From Mycoplasmopsis pulmonis (GTDB lineage Bacteria; Bacillota_I; Bacilli_A; Mycoplasmatales; Metamycoplasmataceae), in the NCBI RefSeq assembly GCF_900660575.1, contig NZ_LR215008.1, forward strand, positions 682,001 through 746,000: 64,000 nt of DNA, given 5' to 3'. Numbering within the stretch: position 1 is the stretch's first letter; every line of letters starts with the position of its first letter. The notes under the pieces were generated by a model. That model was not told the origin of the DNA and made no database searches. It saw nothing but the letters and a program-made list of their open reading frames with translations. The translations under genes were made by a program, and so were the position numbers. This document shows, one piece after another, positions 30,293 through 64,000 of the stretch.

Positions 30293-31580
30293 TAAACTGG
30301 GACAAAAAAATAAAAAACACTTTTTAAAATATACTTTAAATAGGAGTGTTTATGAAACAACTAAAACCAGAACAATGAAAGAAATGATTTTCATTATATG
30401 AAGAATTTTATGATGGAAAAATTAATATAAAAAAATATATATTTTTAGTAAACAAAAATATTGGTAAAGATTGAAAAAATACATATGTAAAATCTTGATT
30501 TTTCAAAAAATATTCTGCTTTTCAAAAAGATGAACAATCTTTAATTTCACAAACTGGCAAATCTACAGCTAACAAAAAAAATAACGGTAGACCACCAAAA
30601 AGAAAAGAAGTTAATGAATATACAAGAGAAGAATTAGAAGAGATTGTTAAAATTTATAGAATAATTTTTGATGACATTAGTGAAAAAGAAATTCGAAAAA
30701 AAATTAAAGAACATAAAGATAAAGAAAAAATATTAACTAAAATTTCATGAAAAGAATTTCTCTTTTCAAAATCAACATATTATTCTTGAAAAAAACCTAA
30801 ACTTGCAGAGCCGAAAAAAGATCAAGAAATTGAAGAAATTATTAGAAAATCATTTCATGAAAACAAAGGTATATTTGGTAGAAAAAGATTAGAAATTTAT
30901 ATTCAAAATAAATATAAAAGGTATATAAACTATCGAAAAATAGGTAGAATTTTGCTTAAATTAAATCTTTTTTGCAAAATTAGAAGAGCAAAAAGAAAAA
31001 ATGAAATTAAAAATCTTAATACTAAATATCAAAATCTAATTCAAAGAGACTACAATGGCAAATTTAACAACATAGTTGCCACTGATGTAACTTATATTCC
31101 AAGCCCCAAAGATGCAATTAACAATCATGTTTATTTATCGATTGCAATTCATCATCAAAGCAAGAAAATAATTAATTGAAATCTAAGTAAAAGAAATGAT
31201 GTTAAGTTAGTTTTAGATCATATTTCTAAAATCAAATTTGATAAAGAGTGAATAATTCACTCAGATCATGGAAGTCAATATTCATCAAATCAGTATAGTG
31301 AAATTATTAAAGAAAACAATGGGATAATTTCAATGAGTAGAATCGCAAATTCACTTGATAATCGAGAAGCAGAATATTTCTTTTCAAATATCAAAAGTGA
31401 GTGCTTAAATGATCTAAAAATTTCAAAATTATCATTCAAAGAATTGCAAGAAATTATTCAAAATTATATTGACTGATACAATAATGAAAGATTACAATCA
31501 ATCTTAGAATGAAAAACACCTCAACAAAGCTGAGATGTTCTAAGTGTTTTTTAAATAGTCACTTTTTTTGTCCTAGTTTA
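30293..31580 (+). mobile_element. Intact IS3-family element, IS1138-like, copy A
   Basis: A 1288-bp element bounded by imperfect 18-bp terminal inverted repeats (left TAAACTGGGACAAAAAAA, right end the complement of TAAACTAGGACAAAAAAA, one mismatch). It is flanked by a 3-bp target duplication TTA (30290-30292 and 31581-31583). It encodes one 400-residue transposase. The size, family and 3-bp duplication match what I recall of IS1138. It lies between ung and a small membrane gene, not interrupting a recognisable gene. Confidence 0.95.
30352..31554 (+). CDS. IS3-family transposase, copy A
   Basis: A 400-residue single-frame transposase. The N-terminal 120 residues are a basic helix-turn-helix region with NNGRPPKRKEVNEYTREELE, and the C-terminal half is an integrase core. 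Catalytic residues are D245 (IVATDVTYIPSP), D305 (IIHSDHGSQYSS) and E341 (DNREAEYFFSNIKSE), giving DD(35)E. IS3 relatives usually use two overlapping frames and -1 frameshifting; here one frame covers all. An AGGAG site lies seven bases before the ATG. About nine Trp residues are TGA. Confidence 0.93.
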
Positions 31581-32459: not shown

Positions 32460-33398
32460 TTATCTTTGAGATTTATCATAGGGAATACCAACTGCTTTTG
32501 GTATTTTGATTTTTTTAGAAAAGCCAAGAAGTATTGTTAAGGTAATTAGATATGGAAGAAACAGTAAAACGTTTGAATATTTTTTAACACTTAATAAAGG
32601 TCCTTGATTTTCTGAGTTTATGGTTATAGCAAGAGAAAAAAGAAGGGCAAAAAATAAAGCTGAAAAAGCAGAAGGCAAAACTTTTCACTGCCCCATAATC
32701 ATAATGGCAAGGGCTAAAAATCCTAGACCTCTAACACTTACTTGAAATGAAGAAGGTTCATTTTGTACAAATATTGACCCTGCAACACCAGCTAAAAACC
32801 CCGATATACTCACTCCAATTCATTTGTATTTATAAACGTTTATACCAACAACATCAATGGCTTGTGGATTTTCACCAATGGCTTTATATCTAAGACCAAA
32901 CTTTGTCTTTTTGAAAAAGAATCATGAAGCAGCTACAATTGTAATAAGAACAAAGACTTTAAATGAAATAATGTTTAAAGGATTTGTACCATTTGTACTA
33001 GCGGCTAGTTCTAAGATTCTAAAATCAAGTCGTCTTGCTTCACCAAAAAATAAGATAATAATTCAGCTTATTCCAATTGCCAAAAAGTTAATAGCAACTC
33101 CAGAAATAATTTGATTTGCTTTTAGTTTAATAGTAACAAAGCCATGCAGCCATGCAAAGGCCATAGTTAAAAGCGCTGCAAAAAACATAAGTGGAATTTG
33201 ATTTCACATTGAAGTAAGACCAGCTTTTGTAAAAAGGTGAGCAAAAAGAGCATAGAAAGTAGCTCCTACAATCATCATTCCATCAATTGCTATGTTAACA
33301 ATACCAACTCTTTCTGAGAAAATTCCTGAAATAGAGGCTATTGCTAGAATCGAACCATATAAGGCAATAAGTACAATTACTTTAATAAAGATTTCCAT
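32460..33398 (-). CDS. nupQ: Nucleoside/BMP-family ABC permease 2
   Basis: A 312-residue permease of the BPD_transp_2 class. It has the typical EVGIVNIAIDG-like SERVGIVNIAIDGMMIVGAT at residues 27-46 and GLRYKAIGENPQAIDVVGINV before the C-terminal segments. It works as the second permease with the split permease gene upstream (stop/start overlap TAATG) and the double ATPase. Substrate in relatives is nucleosides; here it is not proven. Several TGA codons are Trp. Confidence 0.85.
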
Positions 33399-34185
33399 TA
33401 GTACTCCCCTTTCATTTGTCTAATTTCTTTTAAGGTTTTTGAATGTTCTATTCTAGCTTTATTCAATTCATCTTTTAGAGAATTTTCTTTTTTGTTAAAA
33501 GTGTAATTTATTTGTTTTTTTAACAAAATTTTAAAAGAGTCATTATATGTTTTTATTAGTTTATCTTTGAAGTGTTTCTTGTGAGAGACAAAAAGTTTTT
33601 TTGATGATCTATATTCATTTTTTAAATTATTTTTTTCAAAATAACCTAGCTCTTGAAGTCTTTGATTATTAAGAGGTTTTTCCTTGGCAATTTTATTTAA
33701 AATCTCATTTTTTAATTCAAGATTTTTTTCAAGTGCAAGCTTGTCTACTAAGTCTTTGTTTTTCTTGATAATAACTTCAATTTGTTCTTTGTTTTTTTCT
33801 AAAAGTGCTTTAGTTTTTGTAAGTCTTTTTTGATAGATTATTTTTGAATATTTACTTTTAAAAAAGTATTTTCCAAAATTACCTAATAAGCTTTTTTTGT
33901 TTTCCAAGAGTTCAAAAAACTTGAGCTCATTTTCTTTAGAAAAATCGCTTTTTTCTTTTTGATTTTTTTGTTCTTGTTTTATTGATTTTAAAGCTTTATT
34001 AATAGATAAAATTTCATTAAAGTTTTTCTTTGAAAAAATGTTAATACCTTTGTAATAATGAGCTTTAAAAAAGAGGATATATTGATTTTTCAAAAATTTA
34101 ATTGGATTTAATTTTTCAAAAACTGATGAAATTGAAATTATAAACATCATCACACCAATAAAAATTAAATAAAACTCACGAGGAA

Positions 34186-35473
34186 TAAACTAGGACAAAA
34201 AAAGTGACTATTTAAAAAACACTTAGAACATCTCAGCTTTGTTGAGGTGTTTTTCATTCTAAGATTGATTGTAATCTTTCATTATTGTATCAGTCAATAT
34301 AATTTTGAATAATTTCTTGCAATTCTTTGAATGATAATTTTGAAATTTTTAGATCATTTAAGCACTCACTTTTGATATTTGAAAAGAAATATTCTGCTTC
34401 TCGATTATCAAGTGAATTTGCGATTCTACTCATTGAAATTATCCCATTGTTTTCTTTAATAATTTCACTATACTGATTTGATGAATATTGACTTCCATGA
34501 TCTGAGTGAATTATTCACTCTTTATCAAATTTGATTTTAGAAATATGATCTAAAACTAACTTAACATCATTTCTTTTACTTAGATTTCAATTAATTATTT
34601 TCTTGCTTTGATGATGAATTGCAATCGATAAATAAACATGATTGTTAATTGCATCTTTGGGGCTTGGAATATAAGTTACATCAGTGGCAACTATGTTGTT
34701 AAATTTGCCATTGTAGTCTCTTTGAATTAGATTTTGATATTTAGTATTAAGATTTTTAATTTCATTTTTTCTTTTTGCTCTTCTAATTTTGCAAAAAAGA
34801 TTTAATTTAAGCAAAATTCTACCTATTTTTCGATAGTTTATATACCTTTTATATTTATTTTGAATATAAATTTCTAATCTTTTTCTACCAAATATACCTT
34901 TGTTTTCATGAAATGATTTTCTAATAATTTCTTCAATTTCTTGATCTTTTTTCGGCTCTGCAAGTTTAGGTTTTTTTCAAGAATAATATGTTGATTTTGA
35001 AAAGAGAAATTCTTTTCATGAAATTTTAGTTAATATTTTTTCTTTATCTTTATGTTCTTTAATTTTTTTTCGAATTTCTTTTTCACTAATGTCATCAAAA
35101 ATTATTCTATAAATTTTAACAATCTCTTCTAATTCTTCTCTTGTATATTCATTAACTTCTTTTCTTTTTGGTGGTCTACCGTTATTTTTTTTGTTAGCTG
35201 TAGATTTGCCAGTTTGTGAAATTAAAGATTGTTCATCTTTTTGAAAAGCAGAATATTTTTTGAAAAATCAAGATTTTACATATGTATTTTTTCAATCTTT
35301 ACCAATATTTTTGTTTACTAAAAATATATATTTTTTTATATTAATTTTTCCATCATAAAATTCTTCATATAATGAAAATCATTTCTTTCATTGTTCTGGT
35401 TTTAGTTGTTTCATAAACACTCCTATTTAAAGTATATTTTAAAAAGTGTTTTTTATTTTTTTGTCCCAGTTTA
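34186..35473 (-). mobile_element. Intact IS3-family element, IS1138-like, copy B
   Basis: A second 1288-bp copy in inverted orientation to copy A, with the same 18-bp ends and a 3-bp target duplication GAA on the plus strand (34183-34185 and 35474-35476). As far as I compared, the internal sequence matches copy A base for base. It interrupts the first permease gene of the nucleoside-type transporter. Both intact copies face each other with about 2.6 kb between them. Confidence 0.96.
34212..35414 (-). CDS. IS3-family transposase, copy B
   Basis: Identical in deduced protein to copy A over the parts I compared: 400 residues, DD(35)E catalytic core (D245, D305, E341), single frame with TGA as Trp. 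It is intact, so the element should be able to move. It reads in the same direction as the gene it disrupts. Confidence 0.93.
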
Positions 35474-58224: not shown

Positions 58225-58626
58225 ATGAAATTAAAAGCATTATTTTTAGGTCCTGAAGTTCAAAAAAGAAAATATTTACCAAAGATTATTGAGCATCTTT
58301 ATTTTTTATTTTCATCATTTACTTCTACTTTAGTTTTTATCGGTATTTTTGTTTATATAAACTCATTAAATCAAAGTAACTTTTTAGAGAACTTTTATCT
58401 TTCTCTAAAAAGTTCATTTTTTAGATTTTTAATTGCAATTCTAGTAATTGTTTTTGTTTTTAACATCATCTTAAGTATTAGATTATTAAGAGTTTTGACT
58501 AAAAGTGAAAATGGAAAAATGCTTGCTATATTAGAAATTTTTTGTGGCTTAATCATTTTATTTAGTCCTTTAAATTTATTTATTTCTATTTCTTCTTTAA
58601 AGTTTAATGAAATCGTTTATCAATAG
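58225..58626 (+). CDS. Small membrane protein of the maltose transporter region
   Basis: A 133-residue protein with three predicted membrane segments (FTSTLVFIGIFVYINSL, FLIAILVIVFVFNIILSI, LAILEIFCGLIILFSPL). The start has an AAAGGA site five bases upstream. It is followed after eight bases by the MalE-like lipoprotein gene. I do not recognise a family; position suggests an accessory of the transporter. Confidence 0.7.
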   Translation: MKLKALFLGPEVQKRKYLPKIIEHLYFLFSSFTSTLVFIGIFVYINSLNQSNFLENFYLSLKSSFFRFLIAILVIVFVFNIILSIRLLRVLTKSENGKMLAILEIFCGLIILFSPLNLFISISSLKFNEIVYQ

Positions 58627-58634
58627 GGGGTTTA

Positions 58635-60966
58635 ATGAAAAAAATAAAAAAAATATTCTTAGGTTCTTTGTTTTTTGCTATGCCTTTGTTGAGCCTTTCG
58701 TGTTCAACAGGATCTCTTGTTAAAAATGAATTTCAAGATAGCAAAGATATATATGTGGCAAAAGTAGAAAGTCAAAAAGGTTTTTGAGATCAAGTAGTTA
58801 GTGAATTTAATAAAACAAGCTTTGCAACAGAACATAAATTTAATATCAAATTCATTGAAAAAAAATGAATTTGGAGTTATTGACAATGTCACAACTTTAG
58901 GTTTTCAAGATAAAAATTCACCCGATTTAATTTATGCACCACAAGATAGAATTACTAGCTTATTACAAACTAAATCAATTAGAAAATGAGATGAATCTAT
59001 TAAAGATGAAATTCTTAGTCAAGTTGGTGCAAGTGATGCAGAAAAAAGTTTTATTAACTCATTTGGTTCTTTCCAAAGATCAAATGAAGATACACCAAGT
59101 TTTTATAACTTCGCTCACAACAAAGAGGGAATTGTTTTAATGACAAAAAAATCTCTGCCAGAGGTTAAAGCCGATTTTGCCAATACATCAACTGATGAAA
59201 TGGTTGAATTAGTTAAAGCTGGAAAAGCATTTTTTAGAATTCAAGATGGTTGATATGGAAATGGTATTTTAGGTGGAGTTTTATCTCCTGAGCAAATGCG
59301 AAAAATAATTTATAAAAATGGTCAAAACTGGTCTTCTGGTTTTCTAAAAGATGATCCAAATCATGAAAAATTCAAAGAAGCTCTTTCAATAGCAGCTGAG
59401 CTTATGTATCCAATTTGAGAAGCTGCATTTAAACTATCTCAAGAAGAATATACAAAAACTGTTTGAGCTAAAAAAGACATTACTCAAGGTGATTTACAAA
59501 CACTATTACAAGCTGATCTAGGTCCTGTTCAAAATAAAGTTTTAGAGCTTGTTTCATCAGCTAAATTAGACTATGCAATAGTTGGTTCATGAGATATTGG
59601 AACTTCTTCAAAACAAGGAATTAATACTTATGTTAATTTTCCTAAACTAAAAAATGACTATGAATATAAACAAGCACCAGGTTCATGATCATGAAGTATC
59701 AATGCAAGAAACAATGGTGTAAGTGAAAATAGAATTAATGCAATTTATGAATTATTAAAAATAATTTTTAAAACCGATAGCTATTATGGATATTTTAAAG
59801 GTGATACCAAAATTCCATATTTTGTAAATGTTCAAAATGGTCTAAAGTCTAAAATTGACCAAGATAACGTGCAACAAAATCAAGCATTAACTAATTTTGC
59901 AAAAGAAGCAGGATTTGAAAATCTTAATGACTTCAACAATGAATATAATCAAAGATTTGATCAAGTTAACAAAATCCTTGAACAAGCTTTTCCTAAAAAT
60001 AATTCATGAGAACAAACACAAAATCCTAGTCCACTAGATGAGAGTAATACTTATCAAGATAAATTAGATAACATAGGTGATGAAGATAAGGCTAAATTTA
60101 TTGGAATAACTGATGAGTTATTTAATGAACTAAAATCTCTTGAATTCAAAAAAGCAATAGCTCTAAGAAATGCAATTGCTGCAATAATCGGTCTTAACAC
60201 ATTAGCTGAACTTAAAGGTAAAGGCGGAGAGAGCTGACAAGCTTCAAGAGATTTAGTAAAAGCTGATTTTGAAAAAGAAATGCAACATGACAATGACAAT
60301 GCTCACTTGCGCAAAATTGAAAAATATATCTTTGGAGTAAATGGAGATGAGCAAAGTGACAAAGATGATTTAGTAAAACAACTAAGTCAAAAAGACTCAT
60401 TTACAAGTGCTGTTGAGTCAATACATGCAAAAGCTTTAGAATTTTCTAGAAAATATGCAAAAAACAACGTTGATGAAAACAACATTAAAAAAGCTGTTGA
60501 ATTATATTTGGCAAATTACTGAAATCAAGCTATTTGAAATAAATTTAAAAACAAATACTTAGAAATTTGAAAAACATCTAAATTCAAGAAAAAAGATGGT
60601 CAAAGTGATTCATCAATGACAATTGAACAAGTTATTAATGAAGTAAATAAATATCGCTCATCTAATGTTGCTGACAAAATAATTAGTGTTATTACTTCAA
60701 CTAATACTATTGCAAACAATGGTTTTGGTATATTAAAATTACAAAACTCAAGATTAGACAATTCTAATCCACAATTTGGTGGTGCTTTTTGAAGTATTTG
60801 AAATGAAGGAATTTGAGGAAATACAACCATTTATAGAACTCTTTCAAGCACTGTAAAAAATGAGCAAGAATTTAAAGATTATTTCATTAATAAATTTGAT
60901 GAGCTATATAGAGATAGAGTAAATGTTCTTAAATCTTCAAATTCAGAAGACTTTATTCTAGATTAA
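58635..60966 (+). pseudogene. malE: MalE-like sugar-binding lipoprotein, frameshifted in an A8 tract
   Basis: The ATG at 58635 gives a lipoprotein signal (KKIKKIFLGSLFFAMPLLSLSC) and about 75 residues. At eight A (58858-58865) the frame turns into non-family sequence and stops within 20 codons. The neighbouring frame continues 700 residues in the usual mycoplasma sugar-binding-protein style (IDNVTTLGFQDKNSPDLIYA, YAIVGSWDIGTSSKQG, WSINARNNGVSENRINAIYE). Seven A would join the two perfectly. Without this protein the transporter should not bind sugar; phase variation, transcriptional slippage or a sequence error are alternatives. Confidence 0.85.
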
Positions 60967-60974
60967 CTTTTTAA

Positions 60975-61439
60975 ATGAAAAGTAAATACTTAATTCAAAA
61001 AGTCGAATTTTATTTGCAATTAATTTTGCTTTTTATTCATATTACATTATTAACTTTTTGAGTAGTTGAGATTGTGTTTTTAGGTACTAATAAATTTGAC
61101 AATTCAAGCCAGCAAGAACAAGACTTTGGATATCAAAATTTTTTGACAACTAAATTATTTGTTTTTATTGGAAGTTATTTAGTTATTGTCTTTTTTTTGG
61201 TTAATTTATTAGTTTCAAGAAGATATGGCATAGGATACTTTTTTTGCATTATTTGATTTATCTTTTTCTTATCAATTTTAATCACTCATCTTATAGACAA
61301 AAATGCTTATGAAAATACATTTAGAAAAGTTGTTTTTTCACTTTTTGTTGTAGTTAATGTTTTTCAACTTTTATTGATTCTTTATTGAATCTTTAAAGTT
61401 AACAAAGAAAGAATGATAAACAAAATATCAATGCGTTAA
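60975..61439 (+). CDS. Small membrane protein between malE and malF
   Basis: A 154-residue protein with about four membrane segments (LILLFIHITLLTFWVVEIVFL, FVFIGSYLVIVFFLVNLLVS, FIFFLSILITHLI and VVFSLFVVVNVFQLLLILYW). Trp are TGA. Eight bases follow the malE stop and 17 precede the permease start, so it belongs to the transporter operon. Family unknown. Confidence 0.75.
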
Positions 61440-61456
61440 TTCCAAAGGAGGTAAAT

Positions 61457-64000
61457 TTGGAAAAAATAAAACTTTGAAATTGATATGATCAAAGCTTTGA
61501 TAAAAAAATAGATGATTCAAAGTTTGATTATTATTTTTATAAACAACAAGCAACCAATGTTTATAATAGACAAAAATTAGCTATTGACAAAAAGAAAAAA
61601 ATTGACAAAAATTTATTTATTAAAGCTAAAAGATTATTAACAAATGAAAAGAAAAGATCTTTGTCAACTTTGAAAATAGCCAAAAAAAATGAACTAAGAA
61701 TTGCAACACAAACTATCAAACAATTAAATATAAGTAATGATTTAACTAAGCTAATTAACTTTGAAATAAATAAGATAAAAGCAAAGTTACAAGAGTCAAA
61801 AAAATATGTAGAAAATTATTATAAATTACTTAAAAATTCAGCAGATGATTTAAATGTTAAAAAAACAATAATGAATGAAATTATTAGCAATGCTAAAAAA
61901 GTTGAAATTCAAGAATTTGAAAAACTTGTTTATCTTAATGTTGCTAAAAAGTTTTATAAAAAAACAAAATCATTAGAAATTACTAAAAAAAAAATTACTC
62001 AAATAAATTTAGATTTATCTGCTTTTGAAAACGAAATTATTTTCGAAAAAAATAATTTAGATTTTCTTATTAAAACATATTTACATCTAGGTCAAAAATT
62101 AAAAGAACTTCAAAACAAAAAAACACAAATTGTAGCTCAAGTTAAAATATCAAAAAAAGAAATAAATAAAAAATATTTAGAAGATAAAAATAACTTAAAA
62201 ATAAAATACAAAGATCGAATTAACAAAGCAGAATATTCTTACAACAAAGACTATTTTGAACAAAATCAAAAAATCAAAGAATCTTTAAAACATGCAAATG
62301 AAAAAATAGCTCAAAACAAAGACAAAATTAATGAGTTAAATAAAAATAAATTAGAGAAAATAAAAGCTCTTGCTTTAGAAGAAAAAAGAGCTCTAAAAGC
62401 AAATTACTTGGAGTATAAAAAGAATTTAATTTTAGCTAAAAAATATTACAAACTTTACATTAATCATCAAAAGGTTTTATTGATTTGTAACTATTATGAA
62501 AAAGATAAAACTCAAATTGATCAATTATGGAAAAAGTATAAAAATAATTTTCTAAATAAAGTTGATGATCAGCAAGTAAAAAATGATTATTTTGAGCTTT
62601 ATAAAAAAATCATAAATGTATATGAAAATGACAATAGTTATAAAAAACAAGTTGTTAAAAAAATAATCAACAAAAGCTATAATTTTTTGATTAAATATGA
62701 ACTAAGAAAAAATGCTCTTTTCCATCTAAAATCTCAACACTGGCAAAATTTAGCACTAATAAAAAAAGACTCTTCTTATGAAGGTGATTTTTATGAAGTT
62801 AAATCAAATGCTTTATCACAATATGTAATTGACTATAGCAATGAAATTAATAACTCTATCATAGAAAAACAAAAAATATTAGAAGAGCTTTTTAATCAAA
62901 ATTATGCAAAAAATAATTTGGAAAATAAACAAGTTTTTCAAAGCAAAGTTGATAACTTAAAAGTTGATTATTTATTAGAAAAAGCAAAAGTTAAAAAGCT
63001 TGCTAAGAAAAAAGAAATAACTAAAAAAGCTCTTGTTTTCACTAATAAAAAATTGAAAATTGATTTTAAAGAAAAAGTTAATTCATTGAAATTAGAAAAT
63101 CCAAAATATCAAAATAAATTACTATTAAAAACTAATTTATCTCGTCTTTTTTCAAAGAAAAAACTTTTACATAAAATTTATCAATCAAAAATATTGGAAG
63201 CACAAAAAAGTATTCCAACTGAAAACAAAAAATATGCCAGCAAAAAAGGATTTTTAATAAATTTAATTTTGCCTGGACTAGCTGAAATATTGATTTTTAA
63301 ACAATATTGAAAGGGAATTTTATTAATTCTTTTAAGTAGTTTTTTCTATCTAGCTTTTGTTCCTTTTTCGTTTGGTCTTTACTGAAATAAAATAGGTGGA
63401 GTTCAAGGACTAGTTGATCTAGGAGCTAGCATCCATAACCATGAAAAAGGAATTACTCCAGATGCTCGTTATTGAATATTTGGTGGAGTTGTTTCAATAT
63501 TCCTTTTAATCCTTGTTATTGCATTTAATTTATCTAGTGCAATTCAGGCATATCGCAATGGAAAATTTCTTGAACAAGGTATGCGCCCTCAAAGTTGAAT
63601 TCAAACAAAAAAATGACTTTCAAAACAAGGCTTTCCATGACTTATTTCCATTCCTGGATGACTTTTAATTGTCTTTATTGTTGTAGCTCCTTTATTTGCC
63701 TCTTTACTTATTTCTTTTTCAAATACTGGCTTTCAACATGAGCCGCCCGGAAGAGTAGTTGATTGAGTTGGTTTTAGCCAATATGGTAAATGATGAATTT
63801 TTAGAAACAATGGTTTATTAACCTCACTTTTTAGAGTTGTTGGTTGAACTTTTATTTGAACTTTTTCAGCCGGTTTTCTAGTAATTATAGTCGGTGGAAT
63901 TTTTGCTATTTTAGTAAATAGCCATCATATTAAATTTAAAAAGTTTTTTAGATTAATTTACATTATTCCATGAGCTATTCCAGCTTTTGTTACTATTATT
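61457..64000 (+). CDS. malF: MalF-like sugar ABC permease with giant coiled-coil N-terminus (3' cut)
   Basis: Start is TTG at 61457 with AAAGGAGG six bases upstream. The first 595 or so residues are extremely Lys/Asn/Glu-rich, with long coiled-coil heptads (KKSLEI, KEINKKYLEDKNNLKIKYKD and so on). At about residue 600 the normal permease begins (FLINLILPGLAEILIF), with later segments WLISIPGWLLIVFIVVAPLF and FLVIIVGGIFAILVN. The frame is open to the window edge (848 codons). Ordinary MalF has no such cytoplasmic domain. The ATPase and MalG genes are presumably to the right. Confidence 0.88.

Follow-up and report, generated by a model that had tools for sequence, protein, structure and literature searches.

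A lysine-rich, helical N-terminal extension on the MalF permease of mycoplasma maltose importers

Does a sugar permease in a near-minimal cell really begin with almost 600 lysine-rich residues ahead of its first membrane segment and, if so, what might they do? The window analysed here (the whole stretch of 64,000 nucleotides) ends within such a gene, malF, which the original prediction had interpreted as an ordinary sugar ABC permease fused to a long cytoplasmic coiled coil. The frame is open from 61457 to 64000 (+) under genetic code 4 (TGA=W) and runs beyond the window edge to a stop 3105 nt after the start, giving a full length of 1034 codons (genome C1:743457-746561). TGA encodes Trp in the 963 kb host genome, and table 4 restores long operon frames that are broken by table 11, under which the malF frame is also interrupted by TGA. 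The features of malF are as follows.

61444..61452 (+), Shine-Dalgarno sequence AAAGGAGGT, from the sequence, four bases 5' of the TTG start
61457..61498 (+), conserved N-terminal motif MEKIKLWNWYDxxF, residues 1-14; family consensus M(E/D)xLKLYNWYGxxF
61457..63241 (+), lysine-rich extension at the N-terminus of MalF, helical throughout, residues 1-595; no match in Pfam, NCBIfam or PDB sequences
61532..61981 (+), segment 1, residues 26-175, nearly without indels in 30 orthologs, with AF2 helices
62048..62494 (+), segment 2, residues 198-346, a predicted 149-residue helix, from AF2 and the indel pattern
62942..63241 (+), basic juxtamembrane stalk, residues 496-595, ending in K-S-I-P-T, common to other Mollicutes lineages
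63242..64000 (+), MalF permease core, residues 596-848 in the window, continuing to residue 1034 outside it

The permease core

Residues 596-1034 match BPD_transp_1 (PF00528; 3.7e-13, 50 bits against a cut-off of 26.4) and, among PDB sequences, the solved E. coli MalF chains (E about 1e-39). Eight hydrophobic peaks lie within residues 605-1017, six of them preceding the EAA loop (917-937), whose coupling motif YEAGAIDGAKRNRQFFYITMP, from residue 917, aligns with MalF of PDB 3fh6. The permease part is thus, as originally proposed, of an ordinary sugar ABC type, namely the eight-helix MalF type. As in the E. coli maltose importer, the EAA loop and the eight peaks occur together with MalG, MalK and binding-protein genes alongside, and residues 764-994 align with the core of E. 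coli MalF (PDB 2r6g; PRK10999) with E values of about 1e-46 and about 1e-39. Unlike E. coli MalF, the mycoplasma protein lacks the large P2 periplasmic domain, the loops between its first hydrophobic peaks being only about 25-35 residues long, and it alone has a 595-residue cytoplasmic N-terminus. It also scores below the cut-off of the E. coli MalF equivalog (NCBIfam PRK10999; 157 bits versus 392). Judged by its sequence, the protein is a MalF-type permease of a type I ABC importer, but not an E. coli MalF equivalog; malF encodes the MalF subunit of a maltose/maltodextrin ABC importer.

The extension is translated together with the permease

The TTG start at 61457 is preceded, four bases upstream, by a perfect ribosome site, in agreement with the strong site first noted there. 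The start site of MalF and its motif are kept across genera. AAAGGAGG precedes the same start motif in three orthologs (G021, G028 and G034), the remaining ones having mostly weaker ribosome sites or none recognisable, and N8-W9-Y10 and the conserved start are common to the first nine orthologs. In genomes of genus g11, including M. collis, orthologs of 1032-1046 residues align end to end with 50-56% identity.

An annotation artefact, or an internal start near residue 595 yielding a permease of normal size, was the outcome that would have undone the original prediction. TTG codons do occur in the window malF at -107, -62, -51 and -15 relative to the core, but there is no ribosome site at any of them, and the last 120 codons of the extension contain no ATG, GTG or TTG in M. 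collis, G028 and G026. The start-free ends of these extensions and the TTGs devoid of a ribosome site make an internal start very unlikely and, with the upstream start conserved and its ribosome site perfect in several orthologs, we rejected it, having found no credible start near residue 595; the probability left to it is close to negligible.

The search for the extension in related species, suggested with the original prediction, found homologs in 46 of 135 family genomes by profile, all of them among the 55 family genomes with a MalF core. At 20 further loci, extension and core form one continuous frame, the only exceptions being two genes that are evidently disrupted (G059, G105). In G118 and G060 the extension is shorter, with 528 and 488 residues, respectively, and the absent head was matched separately upstream. 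Overall, malF is broken, rearranged or without the head region in G105, G059, G112, G118 and G060 (L091, L092, L117-L119). We saw no standalone copy of the extension among the examined loci, and a search of the own genome for standalone or paralogous copies returned only one match. The claim that the long N-terminus is no annotation error therefore holds, on the grounds of full-length orthologs, a conserved start, in-frame joining and purifying selection (see below), and it is strongly supported that the N-terminus is real and translated together with the permease. The word fusion was apt in that both parts are joined in frame, but the structure is better termed a clade-wide ancestral N-terminal extension.

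Conservation and selection along the extension

In close pairs with unsaturated dS, dN/dS on the extension was 0.15 (G001/G002), 0.12 (G138/G135) and 0.08 (G063/G060), against 0.02-0.04 on the MalF core. The core value for G094/G111 was left out because its 21% identity reflects misalignment, the two cores being clearly similar, and so was the pair G057/G178, because the G057 core was mis-split. These ratios indicate that the extension is under purifying selection, weaker than that on the core.

Conservation of the extension peaks at both ends (1-125 and 500-595), and its middle (326-400) is poorly conserved, with a minimum at 351-400. Indels in 30 orthologs concentrate near residues 185, 355 and 485, which are variable linkers, and the stretches 26-175, 201-325, 401-475 and 501-595 are nearly free of them.

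Composition, location and predicted structure

Residues 1-595 contain 21.5% Lys, compared to a mean of 10.8% for the 47 window ORFs, with a net charge of +65 and about four Pro/Gly in total, which bears out the lysine-rich N-terminus of roughly 600 residues. None of their segments is hydrophobic, mean hydropathy over 19 residues reaching 0.36 at most. The EAA loop is cytoplasmic in all permeases of the MalF kind and, since an even number of peaks (six) precedes it, the N-terminus should lie inside. This helix parity, the positive-inside rule and the lack of a TM segment in residues 1-590 support a cytoplasmic N-terminus, as had been supposed.

An AF2 model of 600 residues, built with two sequences, was all-helical, with helices at 20-90, 96-126, 132-170 and 198-346; its pLDDT was 61 (mostly 65-88 for residues 50-260) and its pTM 0.29, so that the predicted packing of the helices is of low confidence. 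A model of 848 residues with two sequences was unusable (pLDDT 40). In a PDB fold search with the AF2 model, nothing fell below E 0.2 and only generic helical bundles were retrieved. A heptad test on alignment-averaged hydrophobicity gave a significant period of about 3.5 only at residues 85-140 (p=0.01), with p=0.06 in the neighbouring window and no significance elsewhere in the extension. Of the coiled coil originally proposed, for which structure prediction had been advised, the long predicted helices stand, but the heptad signal is weak and local and the pTM low. It is plausible, from the model, that the extension is a helical arm, partly coiled coil; the data reach no further.

An old feature, divided between MalF and MalG

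In a MalF-core tree, 53 members form one clade with support 0.99, comprising family f1, some f3 and f6 genomes (Mycoplasmatales) and one other Bacilli genome (G351). An N-terminal extension, of 138-666 residues, is present in every one of the 53; it is absent from the outgroup MalFs, which are 430-439 aa long, and from G257d, a divergent MalF of the Spiroplasma type. The normal MalF of other Bacilli (G307, G318, G340; 430-439 aa) has the same permease core, at about 400 bits with the same profile, but only 5-13 residues before it. The form of about 590 residues with the NWYG head is confined to one subclade of 34.

Profile comparison shows homology of the juxtamembrane part among the three Mollicutes lineages (hhalign scores of 59 and 48 versus column-shuffled maxima of 26 and 19), and in each of them the net charge of the last 100 residues is about +12 to +16 per 100 aa. 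Spiroplasma-like and clade-B mycoplasma MalFs thus share the homologous Lys-rich stalk, but they have no NWYG head and their extensions, at 138-560 aa, are for the most part shorter. Profile comparison of the G351 extension with those of Mollicutes scored 23 against clade B (shuffled maximum 18) and background against the others, which does not demonstrate homology. Taken together, the extension is an old, conserved feature of the maltose importer in mycoplasmas and spiroplasmas.

Lineages in which the MalF extension is mostly shorter have an N-terminal extension on MalG, usually of about 270 residues and of 145-558 overall, as in Spiroplasma-like and clade-B genomes, whereas MalG of the window's lineage has none. 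Both extensions are unrelated in profile comparisons (score at most 17, like shuffles). Because MalF is long in some lineages and MalG extended in others, the extra residues are divided differently between the permease subunits, and nearly all these importers have several hundred of them on the cytoplasmic side.

Three side observations concern this distribution. The MalG extension of the clade-B/Spiroplasma type (L052:10224-11903, L058:9685-11379 and others) has no Pfam family above cut-off. The window MalF groups with genus g11 (the M. collis group), and genus-mates (relatives G001-G003) have another MalF/MalG type; horizontal transfer or hidden paralogy of the window operon is likely, judging by this grouping. 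In MalF homologs of other Bacilli, the loop behind the first TM hairpin is enlarged by some 530-950 residues (L152:2075-6619, L153:2745-6011), with long charged, helix-like stretches, or else an insertion of some 280-380 residues follows the first TM segment (L151, L154, L155).

The operon and its neighbourhood

Two genes of the same operon lie upstream of malF in the window.

58801..60966 (+), solute-binding lipoprotein gene, main frame; the signal-peptide frame starts at 58635
60975..61439 (+), 154-aa small membrane protein directly upstream of malF, its order conserved

The gene order SBP-TM154-MalF-MalG-MalK is conserved in relatives, and the OB and TOBE regulatory domains of MalK, though weak, can still be recognised. 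Beyond the transporter, the genes adjoining the operon differ between genomes and no single enzyme is a constant neighbour. An operon of the same kind is the maltose/maltodextrin cluster of Mycoplasma mycoides subsp. capri, with phosphoglucomutase, amylases, binding lipoproteins, a TM protein, malC, malG, malK, mapA and dexA (PMC3053259); the parts of that paper describing the cluster mention no N-terminal extension on the permease, unlike what we find here.

The lipoprotein gene (58635-60966) is split by one base at an A8 tract near 58858-58865, where its two frames meet, and is intact in relatives (767-854 aa); phase variation, a broken gene or a sequencing error may each account for this. 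Small membrane proteins of 133, 154 and 184 aa (58225-58626, 60975-61439, L013:13686-14240) flank the transporter genes, in an order kept in many relatives; none has a match in Pfam or NCBIfam, and those of 154 and 184 aa are beyond BLAST detection in some relatives. Elsewhere in the window, two 402-aa ORFs of equal length and composition lie in opposite orientation, at 30346-31554 (+) and 34212-35420 (-), and are possibly copies of one mobile element; a 251-aa ORF with 21.5% lysine (33398-34153, -) adjoins one of them.

Possible roles of the extension

We are highly confident of the anatomy, i.e. that the first 595 residues are a genuine cytoplasmic multi-helix domain on MalF. The best explanation overall, which we favour tentatively and at somewhat less than even odds, is that MalF carries an arm in the cytoplasm, facing MalK, that serves for scaffolding or docking. 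The basic last ~100 residues of this multi-helix arm would stand on the membrane beside the permease, next to the channel exit and the MalK dimer, the conserved N-terminal head, M(E/D)xLKLYNWYG, would be a likely contact site, and the arm, on the MalK (cytoplasmic) face, might keep partner proteins, or adjacent transporters, close to where the sugar leaves the channel. Scaffolding or docking as the function itself, for which the position, the conserved ends and the division between MalF and MalG argue, is likewise tentative and a shade less probable. The in-frame joining, purifying selection, indel-free segments and inheritance with MalF over the whole clade support the explanation as a whole; against it are the poorly conserved middle, the mostly non-significant heptads, the pTM of 0.29 and the variable operon neighbours. 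Among the partners first proposed for the arm, nothing in this analysis favours a cytoskeletal one.

Regulation through MalK and electrostatic anchoring are serious rivals to scaffolding. In the first, the arm would fold onto MalK or the coupling helices and control transport, as a switch resembling inducer exclusion. Mycoplasma-type organisms have few transcription factors, the extension lies on the cytoplasmic side of the permease with both ends conserved, and the extended MalG of some lineages means that both MalK-facing subunits are elaborated; however, MalK retains its OB and TOBE domains, so that replacement by the arm is needless, and no known sensor domain was found in the extension, which leaves a regulatory domain unlikely, if the better of the two. 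In the second, basic helices on the anionic inner leaflet, or bound to ribosomes, RNA or DNA, would fix the position of the transporter. Such an anchor fits the basic juxtamembrane segment of all three lineages and the net charge, which lies between +36 and +74 in almost every intact member of clade A, but lysine is abundant anyway in this AT-rich proteome and the conserved head motif, with its Trp and Tyr, points to specific contacts beyond charge; we regard this role, too, as improbable.

Tolerated growth, with Lys-rich helical extensions gathered by drift and kept as passive ballast, is compatible with lengths that range from 138 to 666 residues across lineages and with the fast divergence of the middle region. 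It is very unlikely, given the dN/dS well below 1, the long indel-free segments, the conserved start motif and the survival of the extension in reduced genomes, in all 53 tree members. Less probable still is cleavage of an initially single chain, which would release the helical part into the cytoplasm and leave a separate permease, as the conserved basic stalk links both parts and we know of no cleavage motif for their junction.

Significance

A literature search outside subscription journals found no description of the MalF extension. Accessory domains of ABC importers usually sit on the ATPase; here, genomes of ~1 Mb that lost most regulation retain 140-670 extra codons on one sugar permease, and this retention singles the extension out as a good candidate for an ABC importer domain with a genuine role in the cytoplasm. 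Because some lineages have a long MalF and others an extended MalG, such a role can be tested. Beyond the scaffold on MalF itself, there is some chance, although a low one, that Mollicutes have a helical platform on the maltose importer, shared between MalF and MalG according to lineage, that recruits cytosolic enzymes or partner transporters. If true, this would be a transporter-borne metabolic scaffold in near-minimal cells.
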